This document shows, piece by piece, positions 53,276 through 64,000 of a DNA stretch of 64,000 bases. The notes below the pieces were generated by a model. The model made no database searches. It had not been told where the DNA came from and saw only the letters and a list, made by a program, of their open reading frames with translations. The stretch lies in assembly GCF_026013615.1 (NCBI RefSeq), contig NZ_JAPDPI010000012.1, positions 1-64,000 of the forward strand, written 5' to 3'. This DNA is from Plebeiibacterium marinum. Its GTDB lineage: Bacteria; Bacteroidota; Bacteroidia; Bacteroidales; Marinilabiliaceae. The position numbers and the translations under genes are program-made. The stretch's first letter is position 1, and each line of letters begins with the position of its first letter.

Positions 53276-55054
53276 ATGAAAAAGTTTATAATATTAATAT
53301 TTGCAATAAACCTTCTATTTGCCTCGTGTAGCACGGATTTTTTAGAAGTTAAGCCTCAAGACAAATATTCAGATGCTGATGTATGGTCGAATGAAGATCT
53401 TGTGGAGGCCTTTGTTAACAACATATACATCGACCTGTACTATGGTTTTCAAACTGTTATGTTGTCCTCACTATGCGATGAATCAATGGAAGTCTGGGGA
53501 TGGGAATCGGCTCCGATTTTAAACAGCCAGATTACAGATAGTTACCTGGGCATCTTAAACCAGGGTCATTGGACAGGAGCTTTTAATAACTTAGGATGGG
53601 ACAGAACCTATCAAACCATTCGCGAATGCAACTACTATTTAGATAAAATTCAGGACTCGGAACTTTCCGGAAATGCCATTGATCAACTAACAGGAGAGGT
53701 TTACTTTTTAAGGGCTTATCTGTACCACTGGCTACTTAGTTTTTATGGGGGTGTTCCGATTGTTGATAAAGCTTATGATCCTACTACAGATGATTTGACA
53801 ATTGCCAGAAACACACTGGCCGAAACGGTTGACTTTATTGTTGCAGACTGTAACACTGCTGCAAATCTGCTACCCCTTGATGGTGATAAGGCACGCGCAA
53901 CTAAAGGAGCTGCATTAACTCTGAAATCTAAAGTCCTACTGTATGCTGCCAGCGACCTGTATAACTCAGAAGGTTCATGGACAGATGGATATGAGCATCC
54001 TGAATTAATAAGTTATATTGATGGAGACAGAACTGAGCGCTGGCAAAAAGCCAAAGACGCAGCTTATGCTGTGATGCAACTTGGTATTTACGATTTGTAT
54101 GGAGGTACCAGTGCAAAATCAGCAGAACAAGCAAGTGACGACTATATTAATATTTTTCTGAATCATGGGAATATTGAAGATATCTTCCTAAGGTATTATG
54201 ACAATATTAATGATAATAACTGGACCTCTCCAAGTCCGGGTTTATTTAACGGCCCCAATGGCTATCACAACTGGGGAGGAAACACGCCAACGGGTCAGTT
54301 GGTAGACTCTTATGAAATGGCTGATGGAACAGCTTTTGACTGGAACAATCCCCTGCATAAAGCAAATCCTTATGCTAATCGCGACCCAAGGTTTTATGCG
54401 AGCATTTTATATAACGGAGCACAATGGAGGGAGCGCCCCGATGATACCAGAGGTATAGATCCGGAAGGTATTGTTCAAACAGGATATTACGAAAATGAAG
54501 ATGGCTCCTATTCACCAGGACTGGATACTCGACAAGGCCCAATAGAAGATTGGAATGGAACGTATACAGGCTACTACTTACGCAAGTTTATTGATCCGGC
54601 AATCAACCACCAATATGAAAGACAGAAATTACCCTGGCGCGAAATGCGCTATGCCGAAGTTATATTAAATTATGCCGAAGCATGTTTGGGACTGGATCAG
54701 GAAACAGAAGCCAGAACGTATATAAATATGATTAGGGCAAGATCCGGGATGCCAGCCATTCCCGAATCAGAAACAGGTAATAAACTTATCCAGCGATATA
54801 GAAATGAACGCAAAATTGAACTGGCATACGAAAATCACAGATACTTTGACATTCGCAGGTGGATGATTGCCACTGAGGTAATAAAAAATGCTGAAGGAGT
54901 AGACATTAGATATCCTTATGGGACTAATACACCTAACTATTCAATTATTGAAGTTCAGGATAGAAACTGGAATAATAACAAATCTTTTTTCTTACCAATT
55001 CTTTTAGATGAATTGAATAGAAATGATTTATTGATTCAGAATCCGGGGTATTAG
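53276..55054 (+). CDS. SusD/RagB-like surface glycan-binding lipoprotein (PUL3)
   Basis: 592 residues; lipobox FASC gives Cys18 followed by STDFLEVKPQDKYSD. Typical SusD helices are GEVYFLRAYLYHWLLSFYGGVPIV, AALTLKSKVLLYAASDLYN, MRYAEVILNYAEACLG and YINMIRARSGMPAI, with a C-terminal YRNERKIELAYENHRYFDIRRW helix and the QNPGY tail. It lies 92 bp after SusC and is its lid protein. Confidence 0.96.
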   Translation: MKKFIILIFAINLLFASCSTDFLEVKPQDKYSDADVWSNEDLVEAFVNNIYIDLYYGFQTVMLSSLCDESMEVWGWESAPILNSQITDSYLGILNQGHWTGAFNNLGWDRTYQTIRECNYYLDKIQDSELSGNAIDQLTGEVYFLRAYLYHWLLSFYGGVPIVDKAYDPTTDDLTIARNTLAETVDFIVADCNTAANLLPLDGDKARATKGAALTLKSKVLLYAASDLYNSEGSWTDGYEHPELISYIDGDRTERWQKAKDAAYAVMQLGIYDLYGGTSAKSAEQASDDYINIFLNHGNIEDIFLRYYDNINDNNWTSPSPGLFNGPNGYHNWGGNTPTGQLVDSYEMADGTAFDWNNPLHKANPYANRDPRFYASILYNGAQWRERPDDTRGIDPEGIVQTGYYENEDGSYSPGLDTRQGPIEDWNGTYTGYYLRKFIDPAINHQYERQKLPWREMRYAEVILNYAEACLGLDQETEARTYINMIRARSGMPAIPESETGNKLIQRYRNERKIELAYENHRYFDIRRWMIATEVIKNAEGVDIRYPYGTNTPNYSIIEVQDRNWNNNKSFFLPILLDELNRNDLLIQNPGY

Positions 55055-55065
55055 ACATTTAAATA

Positions 55066-55124
55066 AATTGGGCATACATTTAATCATGATAAAGTAATCA
55101 ATTGTATGCCCAATTCTTTTTATT
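55066..55124 (+). terminator. Intrinsic terminator after PUL3 susD
   Basis: A perfect 13-bp stem AATTGGGCATACA (55066-55078) with 55103-55115 and a 24-nt loop, followed by T-rich DNA. It separates susD from GH2. Confidence 0.85.
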
Positions 55125-55206
55125 TTAGATATGAAATGGATTTTCAAGGGACATAGAAATATTATAAACTATAGATAACCGAAAAATATTCAATTAAAAA
55201 TAAAAT

Positions 55207-57630
55207 ATGACGACAAAGAGGATATTATTCGCTGGAATAATAATGATGCTTTCAATTGGATTCATCTCTTGTAAGCAACAAGCACAAAGCATAAAGCGAA
55301 AGCATTTTTTTAGTAATGACTGGAAATTTCAGTTGGGTAGTATTGATGATGCTCAGTCTGTTGATATGGACCATTCGAACTGGCGAGCACTTGATTTACC
55401 ACATGACTGGAGTATTGAAGGACAAATTGACCAATCCAACCCTACCAGTAATGACGGGGGTTACTTTCCGGCAGGAATTGGTTGGTACAGAAAAGCTTTT
55501 GACGTTCCATCTGAATGGAAGGACATGAAAACAGCCATCTACTTTGAAGGTGTTTATATGAATGCTGAAGTTTTCATCAACGGCAAATCACTTGGAGTCC
55601 ATCCTTATGGATATACTTCTTTTAAACACGACCTTACTCCATTTCTGCAATTTGGAAAAGAGAATTTAATTGCTGTAAAAGTTGATAATTCGATCCAAAA
55701 AAATTGCAGATGGTATAGTGGTTCAGGTATATACCGTCATGTATGGCTTCAGGTAACGGATCCGGTACATCTTGATTCATGGGATATCGCCATTACCAGT
55801 CCTGTTGCAACCGAAGAACAAGCTTTGGTGAATATCAAATCTAAAATCCATAACGAAACCAAATTAAAGAAGAAAGCTTTAATAAAGATTTCGATAAAAG
55901 ATAAATCCAATCAAGTTGTAACCTCAACAAAGAAAAATATCCAATTGTTACCAGACGCTGTTGTGGACTTTGAGCAGGAAATAAATATCGAACATCCCTT
56001 ATTGTGGTCTCCTGATGTGCCCGATTTATATACTGCTGATATCTCAGTGGAATCAGAAGGAATAGTATTGGATCAATTATCAGAAACTTTTGGCATCAGA
56101 ACCATATCATTCAGTGCAGAGAAAGGCTTTTTACTAAATGGAAAACCCACCATTTTAAACGGAGGATGTGTTCACCACGACAACGGATGCTTAGGTGCTG
56201 CGGCTTATGACAGAGCAGAGGAAAAAAAAGTGGAACTCCTTAAAGAAGCCGGATTTAATGCGGTTAGAACATCACACAATCCACCTTCTGAAGCATTCCT
56301 GTCGGCTTGCGACAAGCTGGGATTGCTGGTTATTGATGAAGTGTTTGATGGGTGGAGAACTGCAAAGGCTCCACAAGCACCCATGGATTATTCTCTTCAT
56401 TTTGACAAATGGTGGAAGAAAGATATAGAAGCCATGGTACTCAGGGATAGAAATCATCCATCAATCATTATGTGGAGTATTGGCAACGAAATAATTGAAA
56501 GAAAGAGTCCTGAAGCGGTGGAAACAGCACGTATGCTGGCAACGCATGTACGCAAGATAGATCAAACACGCCCTGTTACATCGGCCATGACATCCTGGGG
56601 TGAAGGGTGGAAAATTTTTGATCCGCTAATGGCAGAGCATGATGTTTGTGGATACAACTATATGTTGCACATGGCTAAATCCGATCACCAAAGAGTTCCT
56701 TCACGTGTTATTTTCAGCACAGAATCTTATCCCAGAGATGCTTTTTATTATTACAATTTAATCAATAATAACAGCTTTATCCTGGGTGATTTTGTATGGA
56801 CTGCTATGGATTACCTTGGAGAATCAGGAATAGGGGGATACTATTACCCTGATGAACACGCCGATGAGCATTACAGGAGTGATCGGTACCCATGGCATGG
56901 TGCTTATTGCGGGGATATTGATATCACAGGCTGGAGAAAACCAATATCGCATTACAGAAGTATGCTGTATAATGACAATGAAAAACTTTATATGGCCATT
57001 AAAGAGCCAAATCCTGAAAATGGAAAAATAAAAGTTACAGCATGGGGCATTTGGCCAACCTGGGAAAGCTGGACATGGCCTGGTATGGAAGGAAAAGAAA
57101 TTCAGGTAGAGGTGTATTCAAAATATGAATCCGTTAATTTGTACCTGAATAATAAGTTAATACAAAATCTTCCTACTTCAAAAGAGCAAGAATTTAAAGC
57201 TGTATTTACCCTACCCTATTCACCTGGAGAACTAAAAGCTGTTGGTGTTAATGATGGAAAAGAGGTTGAATCTACTGTTTTAAAAACAGCGAAAAAAGCA
57301 AGCCAAATGAAATTAACTGCAGATCGTGAAGTTCTTCATGCCAACGGACAGGATTTATCATTTGTTACCATAGAGATTTGTGATGAAGATGGAAACTTAG
57401 TCCCCTATGCAGAAAACGAATTGAGCTTTTCAATTGAAGGAGAAGGTGAAATTATTGCTGTTGCTAACGCAAACATGAAGGATACTGATCCATATGTTGG
57501 GCATACCCGAAAAGCTTGGAAAGGAAGGGCAATGGTAGTGGTTAAAACAAAACATAAAAGTGGAGCCATTAATTTAACTGCAAATTCAACTGGTCTGCTA
57601 AAATCTGAATTGAACCTACAATCACAATAA
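55207..57630 (+). CDS. Glycoside hydrolase family 2 beta-galactosidase-like lipoprotein (PUL3)
   Basis: 807-residue GH2 with lipobox FISC (Cys near 22). Jelly-roll (about 30-195, DLPHDWSIEGQID and GIGWYRKAFDVP, IYFEGVYMNAEVFINGKSLG), Ig domain (about 197-300), TIM barrel with ILNGGCVHHDNGCLGAA and NAVRTSHNPPSEAFLSACD, acid/base E428 in MWSIGNEI and nucleophile E506 in FSTESYP. A DUF4982 segment follows (VEVYSKYESVNLYLNNKLI) and then an Ig-like C-terminal domain (TADREVLHANGQDLSFVTIEI). This is the standard architecture of Bacteroidota GH2 beta-galactosidases. It probably acts in the periplasm on PUL3 oligosaccharides. Confidence 0.93.
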   Translation: MTTKRILFAGIIMMLSIGFISCKQQAQSIKRKHFFSNDWKFQLGSIDDAQSVDMDHSNWRALDLPHDWSIEGQIDQSNPTSNDGGYFPAGIGWYRKAFDVPSEWKDMKTAIYFEGVYMNAEVFINGKSLGVHPYGYTSFKHDLTPFLQFGKENLIAVKVDNSIQKNCRWYSGSGIYRHVWLQVTDPVHLDSWDIAITSPVATEEQALVNIKSKIHNETKLKKKALIKISIKDKSNQVVTSTKKNIQLLPDAVVDFEQEINIEHPLLWSPDVPDLYTADISVESEGIVLDQLSETFGIRTISFSAEKGFLLNGKPTILNGGCVHHDNGCLGAAAYDRAEEKKVELLKEAGFNAVRTSHNPPSEAFLSACDKLGLLVIDEVFDGWRTAKAPQAPMDYSLHFDKWWKKDIEAMVLRDRNHPSIIMWSIGNEIIERKSPEAVETARMLATHVRKIDQTRPVTSAMTSWGEGWKIFDPLMAEHDVCGYNYMLHMAKSDHQRVPSRVIFSTESYPRDAFYYYNLINNNSFILGDFVWTAMDYLGESGIGGYYYPDEHADEHYRSDRYPWHGAYCGDIDITGWRKPISHYRSMLYNDNEKLYMAIKEPNPENGKIKVTAWGIWPTWESWTWPGMEGKEIQVEVYSKYESVNLYLNNKLIQNLPTSKEQEFKAVFTLPYSPGELKAVGVNDGKEVESTVLKTAKKASQMKLTADREVLHANGQDLSFVTIEICDEDGNLVPYAENELSFSIEGEGEIIAVANANMKDTDPYVGHTRKAWKGRAMVVVKTKHKSGAINLTANSTGLLKSELNLQSQ

Positions 57631-57678
57631 AGATGAATAAAGGTTGTAAGGCCTTACTCAATTCTAAATTAAAACAAT

Positions 57679-57716
57679 AGAGGATATCCTATACCCAAAG
57701 GTTATCCTCTTTTTTG
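57679..57716 (+). terminator. Intrinsic terminator after PUL3 GH2
   Basis: An 11-bp stem with one mismatch (AGAGGATATCC at 57679-57689 with 57700-57710), a 10-nt loop and a T run. It marks the end of PUL3. Confidence 0.88.
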
Positions 57717-57759
57717 TTATTCCCTCCAAAGCATCTATTCCATAAAATTCCCTCTATCC

Positions 57760-57822
57760 GTTATTTTGGTAGGTAAATCCGTAATCTGTATAAATATCTG
57801 GTATAGATAAAATCTAATTTTG
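57760..57822 (+). promoter_or_regulatory. Conserved activator box and TAATTTTG promoter, isoprenoid cluster (site C)
   Basis: Box words TTGGTAGGTAAATCC and CGTAATCTGTATAA span 57760-57793. TAATTTTG, an exact match to the Bacteroidota -7 consensus TAnnTTTG, ends at 57822 with TTTG 25 bp after the box. Sites A and B use the same box with 26-bp spacing. The first gene starts about 240 bp downstream. Confidence 0.62.
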
Positions 57823-58063
57823 TAATTGGAAAATTGTTGATCAGAAACCAACGTAGAATGGTCTGTGTTAAAGTTGCTGAATAATAAAGCATATCACTGG
57901 TTATATGACTCAAAACAGAACTCTAATACCGATCTAAAAATCAAAAGATTAAAAGACTTTTTTATCTTATTTACGATTCGTTTTTACCTATATTTTTTTC
58001 CTTTTTAGGAATATAATAAGGTCTTCAACAATAAAAGGTTGTAATTTAGAGATAAGAAACAAA

Positions 58064-58783
58064 ATGTTATTAAAGATGCCATCAGAAACGATATCTATTT
58101 GTTGTTGTAAATCAAGATCTTTTATCGAAAAAGAAAAAGTTGCACGTATTACTTCTATTTTAAGAAAGGCTGGTAAAAAAGTAAATTTAATAGATGATTT
58201 ATGTGCCCTGTTTACTAATGATCCTGATAAGGTAAAAGAAATAACACAAGGTACCATTATGGCGTGTCATACCAGAGCTGTAAGTTCACAGTTAAAAGCT
58301 CTGGATTTAGAGCCCAATCAAATCATCAATATCAGGTCGCAAACAGCGGAAGAAACGCTTAATGGCTATCAGTTAAATCTGGGAGATTCCTCATTAGCAG
58401 ACTATAATGAAATTATTAAAGAAATTGAAGATTTGCCACAGGCCATAGGTACTGATGCCTGGTATCCGGTAATTGATAAAAGCCGGTGTACTAATTGTGG
58501 GAAATGTAATGATTTCTGTTTGTTTGGTGTTTACACTGTCGAAAACAACGAAGTTCTGGTAACAAATCCTCAAAACTGTAAAAACAACTGTCCGGCATGC
58601 GCCAGAATGTGCCCCAGTCTGGCTATCATCTTTCCGAAATATGAGAAATCACCAATAAACGGAGGAACAGAGATTGAAGAATCCTTTTCTGAGGAAGATA
58701 AGCAGGCAATGTATCAAAAGCGTCTTCAATATCGCTTGCAACAAAACAGAAACCGTTTTTCCCTGCTAAAAAAAGATCAATAA
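58064..58783 (+). CDS. Two-[4Fe-4S] ferredoxin-like protein with Cys-rich N-terminal domain
   Basis: 239-residue soluble iron-sulfur protein. The N-terminal half (about 1-130) has a Cys triplet, C13-C15 ([11 protein letters not shown]), and C68 in MACHTRAV; it faintly recalls the N-terminal part of HdrA-type proteins, but I cannot name it firmly. The middle carries two ferredoxin motifs. The first is C142-x2-C145-x2-C148-x3-C152 ([12 protein letters not shown]). The second is C172-x3-C176-x2-C179-x3-C183 ([13 protein letters not shown]), with one extra residue between its first two cysteines. The C-terminal about 40 residues are charged and helical. Its stop codon abuts the ATG of the radical SAM gene, so the two are translationally coupled; it is the likely electron donor or partner of that enzyme. 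Exact role unknown. Confidence 0.8.
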
Positions 58784-60001
58784 ATGACAATAAACCAATA
58801 TATAGCCAATATTAAAACTGCTATGCGGGTTCCTCTGGAGTGCTCTCCCCGACTGGTATGGAAATTTGCGTATAATTTTGGATGGCGTAATTTGAAAAAT
58901 ATCAACCAGTTTGAAAAACGACAGGCTAAAGGAGAACCCTTCTTCCCTGCTTTTATCATGATTTCGGTAACAGAAAGCTGTAACCTGACCTGTAGCGGTT
59001 GCTGGGTGACTCCGGGAGGTAAGAAAGCACTTACCCCAAAACAAATTGATGGCATCATCACCGAAAGCAAAAAAAAGGGTTCGTATTTTTTTGGAATTTT
59101 AGGCGGCGAACCACTGCTATACAAAGGTTTATTTGAAATCATAGAAAAACATTCCGATTGCTATTTTCAGCTCTTTACCAACGGGATGCTAATCACTGAA
59201 GAAGTCGCTTTTCGCATGAAAAAGCTGGGCAATATCACGCCCCTCATCAGCATTGAAGGACTAAAAGAAGAAAGCGACCAAAGAAGAGGTAAAAACGATG
59301 TTTTTGATAAAACTCTTTCAGGAGTAAGAGCCTGCAAAAAAGCAAAACTCATATTTGGAGCCGCAGCAAGCATCTGCAAGAGCAATTATCCAGATTTGGT
59401 AAACAGGGAGTATATTAACCTATTGGCCAAAGAAGGGATTCATTATTTATGGTACTATATTTATCGTCCGGTAGGCCCTCATCCAAACATGGAAAATGCA
59501 CTTAACGAAGATGAAATTTATGCCTTAAGAAAGTTTATTGTTGAGCAACGAAAAGATGCTCCTTTATTTATTATAGAAACCTATTGGGATGCCTACGGCA
59601 ATGCGCTTTGCCCTGCCGCTACAGGTATGAGCCATCATATATCTCCGGGAGGTGCTGTGGAATTTTGTCCACCCATACAAATGGCTCGCGAATTTATAAA
59701 TGAAGACAGTTCAAACCTAGTGGAGGTATTTGAACAGTCTGAGTTTTTAGCTGATTTAAGAAAACAAACCGCACAAAACTCACGGGGCTGCATCATTTTA
59801 GAAGATCCTGGCAGGCTGGCTCAACTGTTAGAGAAACACAATACAGTGGATACTACAACAAGGAATACCGTTTTGAAGGAATACAAAAATATGGTTCCTG
59901 TAGCAGGACACGATCAACGAGGTAGAGAAATACCTGAGCAAAACGTTTTTTATAAACTCATGAAGAAGAAATATTTCTTTGGTTTTGGTGCTTATGGATA
60001 A
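58784..60001 (+). CDS. Radical SAM enzyme of the isoprenoid-type cluster
   Basis: 405-residue radical SAM protein. The cluster-binding motif is C66-x3-C70-x2-C73 (SCNLTCSGC), followed by the GGEP motif (FFGILGGEPLLY), FQLFTNGM and SIEG strand ends. A C-terminal region has scattered cysteines (ALCPAATG, VEFCPP, RGCII) that may hold an auxiliary cluster, although no complete SPASM motif is visible. No signal peptide. The branch is reminiscent of HpnH-type enzymes that act on hopanoids, but the N-terminus differs and the reaction is not known. Tight coupling to the ferredoxin-like gene before it, and 8 bp to the prenyl synthase fusion after it, suggest modification of an isoprenoid or lipid. Confidence 0.88.
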   Translation: MTINQYIANIKTAMRVPLECSPRLVWKFAYNFGWRNLKNINQFEKRQAKGEPFFPAFIMISVTESCNLTCSGCWVTPGGKKALTPKQIDGIITESKKKGSYFFGILGGEPLLYKGLFEIIEKHSDCYFQLFTNGMLITEEVAFRMKKLGNITPLISIEGLKEESDQRRGKNDVFDKTLSGVRACKKAKLIFGAAASICKSNYPDLVNREYINLLAKEGIHYLWYYIYRPVGPHPNMENALNEDEIYALRKFIVEQRKDAPLFIIETYWDAYGNALCPAATGMSHHISPGGAVEFCPPIQMAREFINEDSSNLVEVFEQSEFLADLRKQTAQNSRGCIILEDPGRLAQLLEKHNTVDTTTRNTVLKEYKNMVPVAGHDQRGREIPEQNVFYKLMKKKYFFGFGAYG

Positions 60002-60009
60002 TTGGATTT

Positions 60010-61569
60010 ATGGAAAAAACAAAGTTTAAATATACAGTACCCAACAGTAACAAACTCCGGAGTCAGCTTAGAAACGAAGCCCGGGTGTTTGTGAAAAACC
60101 AGTTGCTGAGTCCCCCTTTGTCGATGAATTCATTGATTGCTTTGGCCAATGATTTTATGATTCAAAACCAGGTGGATCATGACATTAAAGGATGGTTGAT
60201 GGTGGAGATGAATAATGCCATCTGGCTCGATACGGTTGCTTCCATCCCTCATGAAAAAAGAATTCTGCTGTTGCCCAAATGTTTAAGCAATTCAAAGAAT
60301 TGCAAGGCTGAGATTGATGATTTAGGTTTACTATGCAACTTATGTGGAGGTTGTAATATTCCTGATTTACAAACCAAAGCAGAAGAATTGGGCATGATGA
60401 GTTTAGTGGCCGAGGGGTTTACTTCGGTAATTGGCCTGGTTGAAAGCGGGGTAATTGATGCTGTGATTGGGGTGAGTTGCCTTGAATCCCTGGAGAAGGC
60501 CTTCCCCTTATTAATCAATCATGCCATACCCGGGCTGGCCATTCCTTTAAATGTTGATGGATGTAAGGATACAACCGTAGATGAGGATTATGTACTTCAG
60601 ATTATGGAAATGCAAGATGTTCAGGAAGCCCCGCTTTTGGATTACGACCAGTTGAAGTCTACCATAAAAACATGGTTCACTAAAGAAAACCTTGAAAAAG
60701 TGCTGACTGCTTCAAACGACCAGACCTCCATGATTACCATAAAATGGATGAGTGAGGAAGGGAAACGCTGGAGACCTTACTTATTAGCGGCTACTTACAT
60801 GGCGCTAAACGGAAAAAATGAAATTCCGGAAGAAGTACAACTTGCCGCCATTGCCATTGAGTGTTTCCATAAAGCTTCGTTGGTTCATGATGACATAGAG
60901 GATGAAGATGCAATCAGGTATGGAAAAGAAACCATCAATGCCGCATACGGGGTTCCCATAGCAATAAACGTTGGTGACATGTATTTAGGCGAAGGCTATC
61001 GTTTATTGTCGCAATGTAAACATATGGAGTTATTCAAAGTGGCCTCTGATGCCCATATCGCATTATGCAAGGGACAGGGAATGGAGCTGGAATGGAGTAA
61101 AAAACCTACAGCCCTGGATATGGATTTTGTGCTGGATATCTTTTGCCATAAAACAGTCCCCGCGTTTGAGGTTTCCCTGCTAATGGGTGCCATCTGCGTT
61201 AATAACAACGAAGAGGTTAAAAAACACCTGAGTGAATATTCAAAAGCTTTGGGTATTGCTTATCAGTTAAAAGATGATATAGAGGATTTTGCAGATAATA
61301 ATTCATTAAGCATCCGACCCTCATCGGTATTGGCTGCAATATGCGATATTAATCGTGATGAATTGTTTATTCATACCATGTTACACCATACTGACGTCAA
61401 AACATTTTTAAGAGCCGATGAGAATACAGACTTATTGAACAAAGCTCTGAAAACGGTTCATAACATGGCCAATGAATACCACAATCAGGCTTTGGGCATC
61501 ATAGAAAAGATTTCTAATGTTGAATTGAAAAGACTCTTATTCAGAGTAACTCAAAAGATATTAAAATGA
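60010..61569 (+). CDS. DUF116-polyprenyl synthase fusion protein
   Basis: 519 residues. The N-terminal half (about 1-220) matches the DUF116 Cys-rich domain: LLPKC (C91), C98, then C109-x2-C112-x2-C115 (LCNLCGGC), and a Rossmann-like VIGVSCLESLEKAF strand. The C-terminal half (about 225-519) is a trans-polyprenyl diphosphate synthase with both Asp-rich motifs: D294-D295-x2-D298 (VHDDIEDED) and D422-D423-x2-D426 (LKDDIEDFAD). Residues before the first motif are small (HKASLVHDD, Ala at -5 and Ser at -4). The Ala at -5 and a Ser/Thr at -4 are shared with long-chain synthases such as IspB (HTATLLHDD), so a product longer than C15 is expected but not proven. It condenses isopentenyl diphosphate units; the role of the DUF116 half is unknown. 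The last four bases overlap the next gene. Confidence 0.86.
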   Translation: MEKTKFKYTVPNSNKLRSQLRNEARVFVKNQLLSPPLSMNSLIALANDFMIQNQVDHDIKGWLMVEMNNAIWLDTVASIPHEKRILLLPKCLSNSKNCKAEIDDLGLLCNLCGGCNIPDLQTKAEELGMMSLVAEGFTSVIGLVESGVIDAVIGVSCLESLEKAFPLLINHAIPGLAIPLNVDGCKDTTVDEDYVLQIMEMQDVQEAPLLDYDQLKSTIKTWFTKENLEKVLTASNDQTSMITIKWMSEEGKRWRPYLLAATYMALNGKNEIPEEVQLAAIAIECFHKASLVHDDIEDEDAIRYGKETINAAYGVPIAINVGDMYLGEGYRLLSQCKHMELFKVASDAHIALCKGQGMELEWSKKPTALDMDFVLDIFCHKTVPAFEVSLLMGAICVNNNEEVKKHLSEYSKALGIAYQLKDDIEDFADNNSLSIRPSSVLAAICDINRDELFIHTMLHHTDVKTFLRADENTDLLNKALKTVHNMANEYHNQALGIIEKISNVELKRLLFRVTQKILK

Positions 61570-62438
61570 AAGGGGGCATTTCTTCAAAGCTATTAAACAG
61601 GCTTAACAAAGGTAAGCTTAGCCTTGGTAATGAAGCCAGGGATTGCTTTGTGAAGTTTATTCAATCTCAATTATTGGATGACCAGTCTTTCAAGGACAAA
61701 TCAGGTATATCCGATTTATATTATACCGGGTTTGGATGGATACTTTGTCTGGTTTTGGGAATCCGGCTCGACACACAAAAGATGTCTGTTTATTTGAAAA
61801 AGCATCAGGAAGGAGACCTGGATCTGATTCACTATGCTTCCCTGAAAAGATGTGAGTTAATACTCCAATTGATGGCATCCGGTAAAATCCTTACCTGGCT
61901 TAGGTTGATAAAAACTCAACCCATAAAACCATTAAATGAATTTAACCACGTCCCTCATCTGGATATTTATGCACCCTATTCACAATTTATATGGATGCTA
62001 TTATTGGAAGCTACCGGAAACAGGAAACAAAGCGATGTGGAAATGCAAAAAGTTTTGACCCAATATCAACTACCCCAGGGAGGGTATAAGAACAGCAGTG
62101 AAGGAGCGTGTGCCACAACAAATGCCACAACGGCAGCCTTATCGGTACTGGGAGAAACAAATGGATATAAAACAAATAAAGATATAGTTGCTCTAAAATC
62201 ATTTCAGGATATAAGCGGAGGCTTTTGGGCTGTCAAATCAGCACCTGTACCTGATTTATTATCTACAGCAACCGCTCTGTTTACATTAAGTTGTTACAAG
62301 GAGGAACCAACCTATCCTCCATCGGATTTTATTGAAGCTCATTGGACAGAATCCGGCGGTTTTGTACCTACATTAATGGATAATAAAAGTGATGTGGAAT
62401 ATTGTTTTTATGGATTATTGGCGTTGGGATGTGTGTGA
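61566..62438 (+). CDS. Prenyltransferase/squalene-oxidase-repeat protein (small terpene-cyclase-like)
   Basis: A 290-residue alpha-alpha barrel protein. Gly-rich QW-like repeats at about 166-176 (QYQLPQGGYKNS), 212-222 (FQDISGGFWAVKS) and 259-266 (HWTESGGFV) are typical of squalene-cyclase beta/gamma domains and protein-prenyltransferase beta subunits. No DxDD acid motif and no zinc ligand set is visible, so it may be a partner domain or lipid-binding module and not a full cyclase. Its ATG overlaps the synthase stop (ATGA), a sign of translational coupling. A 675-bp gene-free stretch follows before a second protein of the same repeat class. Function inferred only from fold and neighbours. Confidence 0.78.
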   Translation: MKGGISSKLLNRLNKGKLSLGNEARDCFVKFIQSQLLDDQSFKDKSGISDLYYTGFGWILCLVLGIRLDTQKMSVYLKKHQEGDLDLIHYASLKRCELILQLMASGKILTWLRLIKTQPIKPLNEFNHVPHLDIYAPYSQFIWMLLLEATGNRKQSDVEMQKVLTQYQLPQGGYKNSSEGACATTNATTAALSVLGETNGYKTNKDIVALKSFQDISGGFWAVKSAPVPDLLSTATALFTLSCYKEEPTYPPSDFIEAHWTESGGFVPTLMDNKSDVEYCFYGLLALGCV

Positions 62439-62632
62439 AAAGAGCGGAGGGCAGAGGGCGGAGGGCGAAGGGCTGAGAGTTGAGGGCAGAGAGTGGAGAG
62501 CCAAGAGCAGAGAGCGGAGAGTTGAGGGCCTTGATTAATGAGATGAAGGAAACTGGGAAAAGGGAAAAAGGAGAAAGGAGAAAGGAAATTGATGATTAAT
62601 TGAGTTAAAGAAAGAAGTAATTTAAACGAGAT

Positions 62633-62875
62633 ATATTTTGAAAGATAGAGTTTCAATCTCGAATGGTTCTCCCGGCATCAGCTGGTGAGCCAAAAAACAA
62701 GACACTGTAGTCGGCAAAAGCGGTGTTGGCTAAAGCCTTGAGGCACGAAAGGCAAGTTTCAGCGCTTTCGACGTAGGTACCGTAGTTTTTTTTGTGCGAA
62801 GCAGGTGCAGCCGCCGGACTTTTTGTTTCCTTTTTTGACTGTAGAAAAAAGGAAAAGCCCAGCGGCTTGAGCTAC
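62633..62875. repeat. Hairpin-rich dispersed repeat, copy 2
   Basis: It opens with ATATATTTTGAAA and a GGCATCAGC word. It closes with GCCGGACTTTTTGTTTCC, TTTTTTGACTG, AGAAAAAAGG and GCGGCTTGAGC, which align with the end of the copy at 23645-23870. The middle differs from copy 1, and both are hairpin-rich. Confidence 0.6.
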
Positions 62876-62882
62876 GGAATGA

Positions 62883-62912
62883 GAATGAGAATAAGAATAA
62901 GAATAAGAATGA
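62883..62912. repeat. Hexanucleotide tandem repeat (GAATAA/GAATGA)
   Basis: Five head-to-tail hexamers, GAATGA, three GAATAA and GAATGA, in intergenic DNA. A short simple-sequence tract of unknown role. Confidence 0.6.
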
Positions 62913-62952
62913 AAAAACGATATAATAAAATAAGTAAGAAAAATGAAATTAA

Positions 62953-63005
62953 AAAACCACCTCCCCTCTCCTACGTCGAGGTACTCCTCCTTGGTAAGGA
63001 GGAGA
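62953..63005. repeat. Solo arm of the dispersed GGAGG-type repeat
   Basis: It matches the reverse complement of the left arm of the inverted repeat at 20977-21028 in 36 of 37 outer bases, and ends with its own CTCCTCC-TTGGTAA-GGAGGAG hairpin. Only one arm is present here. Confidence 0.72.
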
Positions 63006-63113
63006 GTTTATTTGCATAATGCATAGCTATTTAAAACAGAAAATAATCAATAACAGGGAGCTGTATTCATACAGTATTCTTAAATTAATTAAAAAGAGAT
63101 AACCAATTAGACA

Positions 63114-64000
63114 ATGCAAAAAAGTAAAACAGATACAATGATCGAATATCTTCAGCATGAACTCCTGAAAAGACGTTCTGAGGACGGATTATGGACAGGA
63201 TTTTTATCATCCAGTGCCATATCTACGGCTGTATCCGTATTTGCTTTATTTATTGAGGACAAGGAAAAACACGCCTCTCTTATTCAAAAAGGTATTCATT
63301 GGTTACATAGCCATATGCTCCCTGACGGATCGTGGGGCGACAGTCCGGAAAGTCCGTCGAACATGACAGCTACACTCCTGTCTTATGCAACACTAAGTGC
63401 CACCGGAGAAGTACCTGAAAAAACCAGGCAGTACATCTTAAATCATTTCAAGGGTTTAACAGATCAGCATATCATTAAAGGCGTGCTCAGCTATTATGGT
63501 AAGGATTTAACCTTTTCTGCCCCAATTTTGGTGATGTGCGCTTTGGCTGGCGTTATTTCTTCATGGAAAGAGATTCCTCAACTCCCCTTCGAGGTTTCAG
63601 TATTACCCCAAAAACTATTCAGGTTTTTCAAACTTCCTGTTGTAAGCTATGCTATTCCTGCTTTGATTGCTGTTGGTATTTTAAGGTATAAAAAAGGGAG
63701 AAAGAATGCTATCCGACAGTCATTTATTGCCCCATCGTTAAGGATACTTACAAAACTTCAGCCTTCAAACGGTGGTTTTCTTGAGGCCGCACCACTTACC
63801 GGTTTCGTAGCGATGTGCATGTGTGGATCAGGTTTCCAGAAACACACAACTACGCAAAAAGCAATTGAATTTCTTACAGATTCTGTTCGTGACGATGGTT
63901 CATGGCCTATTGACACCAATCTCTCATCCTGGGTAACAGCACTAAGTGTAAGGGCTTTGGGAAACAGCATAGAGAATCCGGAATATTTGGCAAGTCAAAT
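63114..64000 (+). CDS. Squalene-cyclase-like (prenyltransferase repeat) protein, 3-prime truncated by window end
   Basis: The first 295 residues are visible and the frame runs off the window. It starts MQKSKTDTMIEYLQHELLKRR and shows QW-type repeats: W63 with DGSWGDSP at about 71-78, SNGGFLEAAP near 218 and DDGSWPIDTNLSSW at about 260-273. A DGSWG block near the N-terminus is typical of squalene-hopene/oxidosqualene cyclases and of a looser family of prenyltransferase-repeat proteins. The acid DxDD motif is not in the visible part; it may lie beyond the edge. The start has no competing upstream ATG. Same direction as the synthase operon, so it could be the cyclase that uses its product; this is inference. 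Confidence 0.75.
   Translation, partial: MQKSKTDTMIEYLQHELLKRRSEDGLWTGFLSSSAISTAVSVFALFIEDKEKHASLIQKGIHWLHSHMLPDGSWGDSPESPSNMTATLLSYATLSATGEVPEKTRQYILNHFKGLTDQHIIKGVLSYYGKDLTFSAPILVMCALAGVISSWKEIPQLPFEVSVLPQKLFRFFKLPVVSYAIPALIAVGILRYKKGRKNAIRQSFIAPSLRILTKLQPSNGGFLEAAPLTGFVAMCMCGSGFQKHTTTQKAIEFLTDSVRDDGSWPIDTNLSSWVTALSVRALGNSIENPEYLASQ

Follow-up and report, generated by a model that had tools for sequence, protein, structure and literature searches.

We analysed the first 64,000 nucleotides of contig NZ_JAPDPI010000012.1 from Plebeiibacterium marinum (positions 1-64000 of 120,225 bp, hereafter the window), which is part of a genome of 5.62 Mb that is 98.2% complete. Our subject is a cluster of five genes on the forward strand at the end of the window, encoding in this order a ferredoxin-type protein, a radical S-adenosylmethionine (SAM) protein, a fusion of DUF116 to a trans-polyprenyl synthase, and two proteins with cyclase-type repeats, here termed CYC1 and CYC2. 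All five open reading frames (ORFs) are present at their predicted coordinates with intergenic distances of 0, 8, -4 and 675 bp, and an initial annotation of this DNA had likewise described the first four genes as abutting or overlapping (0 bp, 8 bp, 4-bp overlap). Reading past 64 kb, as that annotation had proposed, showed that the cluster is bigger than is visible in the window. In the following, G numbers denote genomes (G000 being the window genome) and L numbers fetched loci.

Conserved residues of the five proteins

CYC2 occupies 63114..64000 of the window (+ strand, open at the window's edge); its gene extends to contig position 64862, giving a full-length protein of 582 amino acids (aa). 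The window part matches SQHop_cyclase_N (E 3.6e-15) and the full-length protein SQHop_cyclase_C (E 2.5e-30), both above the cut-off. In class II cyclases, the DxDD motif is the proton donor and a His supports it. When the profile of CYC2 was compared with the PDB, both halves of squalene-hopene cyclase (1gsz) were matched with an E of 2.6e-38; the CYC2 motif PDADDT (residues 325-330) fell on PDVDDT of 1gsz, and D384/H388 on its D-V-T-A-H segment. The acids D326, D328 and D329 were invariant in 18 of 18 aligned sequences, as was the D384/H388 pair. Judged from its sequence, CYC2 belongs to the squalene-hopene cyclase family of class II terpene cyclases. Its score with the model for hopene cyclase proper (TIGR01507) was 79.1 bits, against an equivalog cut-off of 431.1. 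The alignments behind the counts of 81, 22 and 14 sequences given below comprise members inside length limits.

CYC1 (61566..62438, + strand, 290 aa) is predicted to form a single alpha-alpha toroid (pLDDT 91.8). Its Pfam match to Prenyltrans (7.1e-05) lies under the cut-off, its nearest PDB sequence is the beta subunit of Rab geranylgeranyltransferase (2e-11), and the top fold matches include this same subunit (TM by query 0.5-0.6) together with squalene cyclase domains. The DPFHT motif of protein prenyltransferase beta subunits, whose His we take to be a zinc ligand, reads DLYYT in CYC1, so that the His is absent. Profile comparison placed the CYC1 motif PDLLST on PDADDT of CYC2 (E 8.3e-06, probability 83.5), and D230, L232 and T234 of this motif were invariant in 18 sequences. 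CYC1 looks like a relative in which DxDD reads DLLS, two of its three acids being gone. The two cyclase-repeat proteins of the initial annotation are therefore not equivalent, the DxDD motif being complete in CYC2 alone.

The fusion protein (60010..61569, + strand, 519 aa) combines DUF116 (residues ~54-198) with the synthase (~209-519), and Pfam recovered both DUF116 (1.5e-29) and polyprenyl_synt (5.5e-44) in the one protein. In the synthase half, D294/D295/D298 and D422/D423/D426, the two Asp motifs of trans-prenyl diphosphate synthases, were invariant in 49 aligned sequences and were kept at 98-100% in 81; its best PDB matches include archaeal geranylgeranyl diphosphate and long-chain synthases. 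By a rule for such synthases, residues of small size preceding the first Asp motif would mark a long-chain enzyme; this sign was considered too weak and was not used. The DUF116 half scored 102.9 bits against a gathering cut-off of 25 (PF01976), and seven of its Cys were invariant in 81 sequences. Sequence comparison of this half with the PDB gave no match at E up to 10, and the matches shown in fold searches with the fusion model (50 each) were synthases aligned over 209-519, which barely probed the DUF116 half. The alternating strand-helix order of DUF116 fits the proposal of a flavodoxin-like fold made for arCOG02078/COG1852 (DUF116) in PMC5898192 (2015). In its passages on this family, that paper also proposes an electron-transfer role for DUF116 from archaeal gene context and mentions, as an aside, a DUF116-polyprenyl synthetase fusion in some bacteria (Psta_0175, Pirellula staleyi).

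The radical SAM protein (58784..60001, + strand, 405 aa) matches Pfam Radical_SAM with an E of 2.8e-18. The Cys of its CxxxCxxC motif (C66/C70/C73) were invariant in 22 of 22 sequences, and so were C276, C295 and C336. None of the 25 NCBIfam matches listed (of 63) exceeded its cut-off; the best models include NirJ1, NirJ2, AhbD, AhbC and HpnH. The score with HpnH (TIGR03470) was 50.8 bits against a cut-off of 225.05, and the initial annotation had likewise seen no HpnH-type N-terminus. The gene directly upstream (58064..58783, + strand, 239 aa) encodes a small Cys-rich domain (CxC...DLC...AC..R) followed by a 4Fe-4S ferredoxin domain. Every one of its ferredoxin-type 4Fe-4S Pfam matches is under the curated cut-off, and in many clusters having CobW-type genes the two domains are separate genes. 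An HdrA-like N-terminus of this protein, suspected by eye, was dropped, since a PDB comparison extended to E 10 came back empty and Pfam showed nothing relevant in three proteins.

The genes for CYC1 and CYC2 are separated by an intergenic stretch of 675 bp (62439..63113, unstranded) with dispersed repeats and a terminator-like hairpin at 62984-63004 on the + strand. Because of these repeats and this hairpin, CYC2 may have its own promoter in the window genome. Within 57500-64000, terminator-like sites numbered 14 versus 5.4 in shuffles, and in the same scan promoter-like sites were not above the shuffle level (15 versus 18.0). The corresponding gap measures 0, 10 and 61 bp in L012, L013 and L089, respectively. 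Used as a query, the repeat stretch matched 17 other places in the genome, three of them within the window.

Distribution of the gene set

Besides the window genome, at least 123 genome stretches carry the fusion, the best 80 of which were kept; they come from seven or eight phyla, at 35-77% identity. Carriers are recorded under Bacteroidota, Verrucomicrobiota, Planctomycetota, Acidobacteria, KSB1, Omnitrophota, Riflebacteria and Lentisphaerae-type lineages, and cultured ones include Labilibacter sediminis and Plebeiobacterium sediminum; the scan for relatives detects genomes with one of six peptide patterns. Presence of the other genes was counted in 50 of the 81 fusion genomes (G000 and 49 of the 80 loci), which were hand-picked for variety, and the genome searches scored candidates from a loose first pass. 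Neighbourhood genes were predicted with a home-made caller favouring conserved ORFs, and neighbourhood tallies exclude either L001-L008 and L091 or L001-L008 and L091-L112.

The order ferredoxin, radical SAM, fusion, CYC1, CYC2 is repeated in L012, L013, L089, L077, L082 and L037. CYC1 was present in 49 of the 50 fusion genomes, and CYC2 scored at least 300 bits in 47; G031 has a fragment of 54 positions at a contig end, G007 a weak partial match and G013 none. Some loci are short contigs: CYC2 lay within the fetched locus in 20 genomes, and the other 27 of the 47 were recovered via genome search alone. CYC1 is located at most 1 kb from CYC2 in 29 of these 47 genomes. The radical SAM protein was found in 46 of the 50. 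Among the misses, G007, G016 and G035 (L018, L031 and L067) carry a different radical SAM protein of ~520 aa in the usual slot between ferredoxin and fusion, an apparent non-orthologous replacement; the one scanned, from L031, matched a B12-binding radical SAM family with 74.5 bits (cut-off 251).

In 194 Verrucomicrobiota genomes, a sample from the phylum of G033 chosen independently of the fusion, the fusion (E 1e-100) was present in 31 and CYC2 (E 1e-60) in the same 31, with both on one contig in 16 of them. Fisher's p for this overlap is 1.2e-36, a value that ignores kinship and is not readable at face value. Among 345 Bacteroidota genomes, fusion and CYC2 were each found in G000 alone; in 61 of the 62 genomes with a match, the fusion profile was matched only from position 230 on, corresponding to a plain synthase half. 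Additional Bacteroidota carriers are known from the relative scan, and the set is patchy in this phylum. Mirror distances between the cluster proteins gave r values of 0.87-0.99 (8-22 loci per pair), for which common descent alone could suffice. Because the gene order recurs in relatives and the genes co-occur at the genome level, the association exceeds chance, and the gene set acts as a unit across genomes. The initial annotation had held that its proposal would fall if these families did not co-occur elsewhere, and the counts for CYC2, CYC1 and the radical SAM protein in the 50 genomes and for fusion and CYC2 in the 194 leave it standing.

Substrate supply and neighbouring genes

A search of the G000 genome for the squalene/phytoene synthase family (SQS/PSY; PF00494) gave no match, the control being positive in 7 of 14 genomes; the remark in the initial annotation that squalene synthase and phytoene genes are missing thus extends to the whole genome. 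No SQS/PSY gene was found in 14 of the 50 fusion genomes, G000 included, and CYC1 is kept in all 14. Because G000 and 13 of the 49 others are without such a gene, the usual squalene route is not the universal source of substrate. Nine of the 14 also lack CobW, an indication that the pathway may exist in two forms.

Loci from KSB1, Acidobacteria, Planctomycetota, Lentisphaerae and many Verrucomicrobiota carry extra genes upstream in varying sets, namely a cysteine desulfurase, a GcvH-like protein, a CobW-type GTPase (names derived from L039 proteins) and a separate small Cys-rich protein. CobW was present in 38 of the 50 fusion genomes and absent from 12, the window genome among them, and we rejected the CobW/GcvH-like/desulfurase module as part of the core on this absence. 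In L143-L150 (Verrucomicrobiota), a phytoene/squalene-synthase-type gene lies near the GcvH-like and CobW genes, often with lepA-/lepB-like genes. Just upstream of the radical SAM gene in L123, L125, L126, L127, L131 and L132 (Verrucomicrobiota), we noted a six-protein family resembling class I aldolase (two sequences, by eye). Four small proteins of 114-137 aa are encoded near the radical SAM gene in L125, L126, L127 and L132; the two that were read consist of repeated units, e.g. QIVDSFPDFKI.

Downstream of the cluster in the window genome, a run of genes with gaps of at most 163 bp extends to ~78.4 kb and encodes PQQ/NHL-type propellers together with NapH-, NuoEF- and NuoG-like electron carriers. 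Two PQQ-type propeller genes (contig 64903-67564) come directly after CYC2 and two of NHL type at 67586-69610, and these are followed in turn by an exported 4Fe-4S protein, a NapH-like membrane ferredoxin and a third PQQ-type propeller. The run continues with a NuoE/NuoF fusion (73694-76102), a NuoG-like 2Fe-2S protein and a PQQ-type lipoprotein, the last gene, which ends at 78395. Proteins were labelled as exported or as lipoprotein, and unscanned propellers were named, by reading the sequences. The electron-transfer set also lies downstream of the cluster in L133-L137. Tallied from the loci viewed, with no genome-wide search for it, the FeS/NapH set was seen in six genomes (G000, G001, G002, G020, G037 and G048), all of them without CobW. 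This suggests that the CobW module and the FeS/NapH set are alternative supplies of electrons, metal or sulfur to one core.

Directly upstream of the cluster, 53276-57630 encodes SusD-like and glycoside-hydrolase-like proteins (by eye), apparently an unrelated polysaccharide locus. Histidine-kinase-like and LytTR-like regulators (by eye) were noted near the cluster in the window genome (L010:11303-13072), and their homologues adjoin the cluster in L077 (L077:4426-6250).

Proposed pathway, alternatives and known systems

From the observed gene content, order, co-occurrence and conserved residues, we propose with moderate confidence that the five genes encode the core enzymes of a pathway leading, apparently without oxygen, to a cyclised polyprenoid modified by a radical SAM enzyme. 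Given the intact motifs, we infer the product of the synthase half to be a linear all-trans prenyl diphosphate, the chain of which may be long. The DxDD acid of CYC2 would protonate the far end of this chain and the rings would close as in squalene-hopene cyclase, as its family and residues indicate. CYC1, without the DxDD acid pair, would most likely serve to bind the chain or pass it on, or catalyse a step that involves no protonation. With electrons from the ferredoxin-type protein, the radical SAM protein would modify the chain or the ring product, and DUF116 with its seven invariant Cys may be a redox or metal domain coupled to the synthase. Because the envelope electron-transfer set directly follows the cluster in Marinilabiliales and Riflebacteria, the product there is probably a membrane electron carrier itself or destined for one. 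A bolder form of this idea, in which a squalene- and oxygen-independent polycyclic terpenoid, built from the polyprenyl diphosphate of the fusion, cyclised by CYC1 and CYC2 as a pair and completed by the radical SAM enzyme, is a novel lipid-soluble redox carrier linking NADH, NuoEF and the NapH-like protein to the exported propellers in these two lineages, seems doubtful to us. Our general claim is that of a cyclised polyprenoid, and a squalene-free route is claimed for the PSY-free genomes only.

Several observations weigh against the proposed pathway. The terminator-like hairpin before CYC2 argues against a single transcript in the window genome. In 3 of the 31 Verrucomicrobiota carriers (G446, G511, G558), CYC2 is matched by pieces scoring under 300 bits, and related genomes are non-independent in the co-occurrence counts. 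Among the loci viewed, the FeS/NapH part occurs in those of Marinilabiliales and Riflebacteria only, and therefore the electron-transfer set is not core. An SQS/PSY-family gene is present in 36 of the 50 fusion genomes (the one in G001 scores just 22.8 bits). A PSY-type gene lies at most 2 kb from CobW in seven Verrucomicrobiota genomes (G021, G023, G026, G029, G033, G034 and G038), with the GcvH-like gene between or beside them and lepA/lepB-like genes nearby in most (names by eye). Because of this proximity squalene could be the substrate there, and squalene or a similar product may participate in these genomes. The PSY-free genomes could draw on another substrate source, tetraprenyl-curcumene-type synthases lying outside the search.

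The presence of SQS/PSY genes in most of the genomes and their position near CobW, together with the weak HpnH match of the radical SAM protein and the fact that CYC2 is nearest to squalene-hopene cyclase, would fit a divergent hopanoid or triterpene pathway, in which squalene comes from elsewhere, CYC2 is an ordinary squalene cyclase and the radical SAM protein is HpnH-like. We regard this as unlikely, as CYC1 persists in all 14 genomes without SQS/PSY. Membership in the hopanoid pathway fails on three features, namely PSY in G000 and the cut-offs for HpnH and hopene cyclase, both missed by the margins given above. Moreover, 8 of the 50 genomes have extra, weaker cyclase matches beside CYC2, as expected if the job of CYC2 differs, and the squalene pathway is not known to require a dedicated DUF116-synthase fusion. 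The partner genes would instead be accounted for if the product were not a membrane lipid but a carrier for redox enzymes, i.e. a modified prenyl cofactor, possibly bearing sulfur or metal, with the desulfurase, GcvH-like and CobW proteins (or NuoEF/NapH) as partners. In L045 and L083, the genes for GcvH-like protein, CobW, desulfurase, radical SAM protein, Cys-rich protein, ferredoxin and fusion abut or overlap in this order; the GcvH-like lysine is kept in 14 of 14 sequences. The 38 genomes with CobW, the electron-transfer genes found downstream in G000 and L133-L137, and the archaeal gene context by which the DUF116 passages of PMC5898192 tie this domain to electron transfer point the same way. 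However, no cofactor-using enzyme was recognised, and CobW is absent from 12 of the 50 genomes, including G000, which makes this explanation rather improbable in our view. Finally, the canonical synthase half could belong to a housekeeping long-chain synthase for menaquinone with unrelated neighbours. This we consider very improbable and reject on the Bacteroidota and Verrucomicrobiota distributions, since 61 of 62 Bacteroidota matches are the plain synthase half, fusion and CYC2 occur in G000 alone of the 345, and both have an identical distribution (31 of 194) in the second sample.

The genes of the proposed polyprenoid pathway are retained together, almost one-to-one, in seven or eight phyla and are expected to yield a useful product, for which the literature searched holds no record. 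If this product is a cyclic terpenoid, Verrucomicrobiota, Planctomycetota and their relatives would contain an overlooked class of bacterial lipid or cofactor, with rings that could be mistaken for hopanoid or sterol rings. As some related genomes carry the set and others lack it, lipidomics could address the question of the product. Among the matches listed in the open literature (titles and beginnings of abstracts, with few subscription papers), we found no description of the gene set; DUF116 and its accession names led, in the open literature searched, to PMC5898192 only, and section 3.6 of that paper treats arCOG02078/COG1852 with no tie to a cyclase, a radical SAM protein or a product. 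The view of the initial annotation that this isoprenoid-cyclising set stands outside the named pathways is retained, as no matching named pathway was found.

One of the closest known systems is the hopanoid pathway of squalene-hopene cyclase and HpnH, which shares the two-half cyclase profile, the DxDD motif, the Asp/His pair and a radical SAM protein; unlike it, the present set has no SQS/PSY in G000 and includes the single-domain CYC1 and the DUF116-synthase fusion. Drimenyl and ent-copalyl diphosphate synthases also perform class II chemistry. CYC2 matches them (7xq4, 1.4e-16, and 5bp8, 3.2e-09, respectively) more weakly than squalene-hopene cyclase. Rab geranylgeranyltransferase beta resembles CYC1 in sequence and fold, and no alpha subunit was seen for CYC1. 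The C35 terpene pathway of Bacillus consists of heptaprenyl synthase, YtpB and tetraprenyl-curcumene cyclase. This pathway likewise pairs a long-chain synthase with a squalene-hopene-cyclase homologue, and it differs in that it is not known to include a radical SAM protein, DUF116 or CYC1. Compared with these systems, the cluster assembles familiar enzyme families into an undescribed, phylum-spanning pathway, the product of which is probably an undescribed lipid or cofactor.

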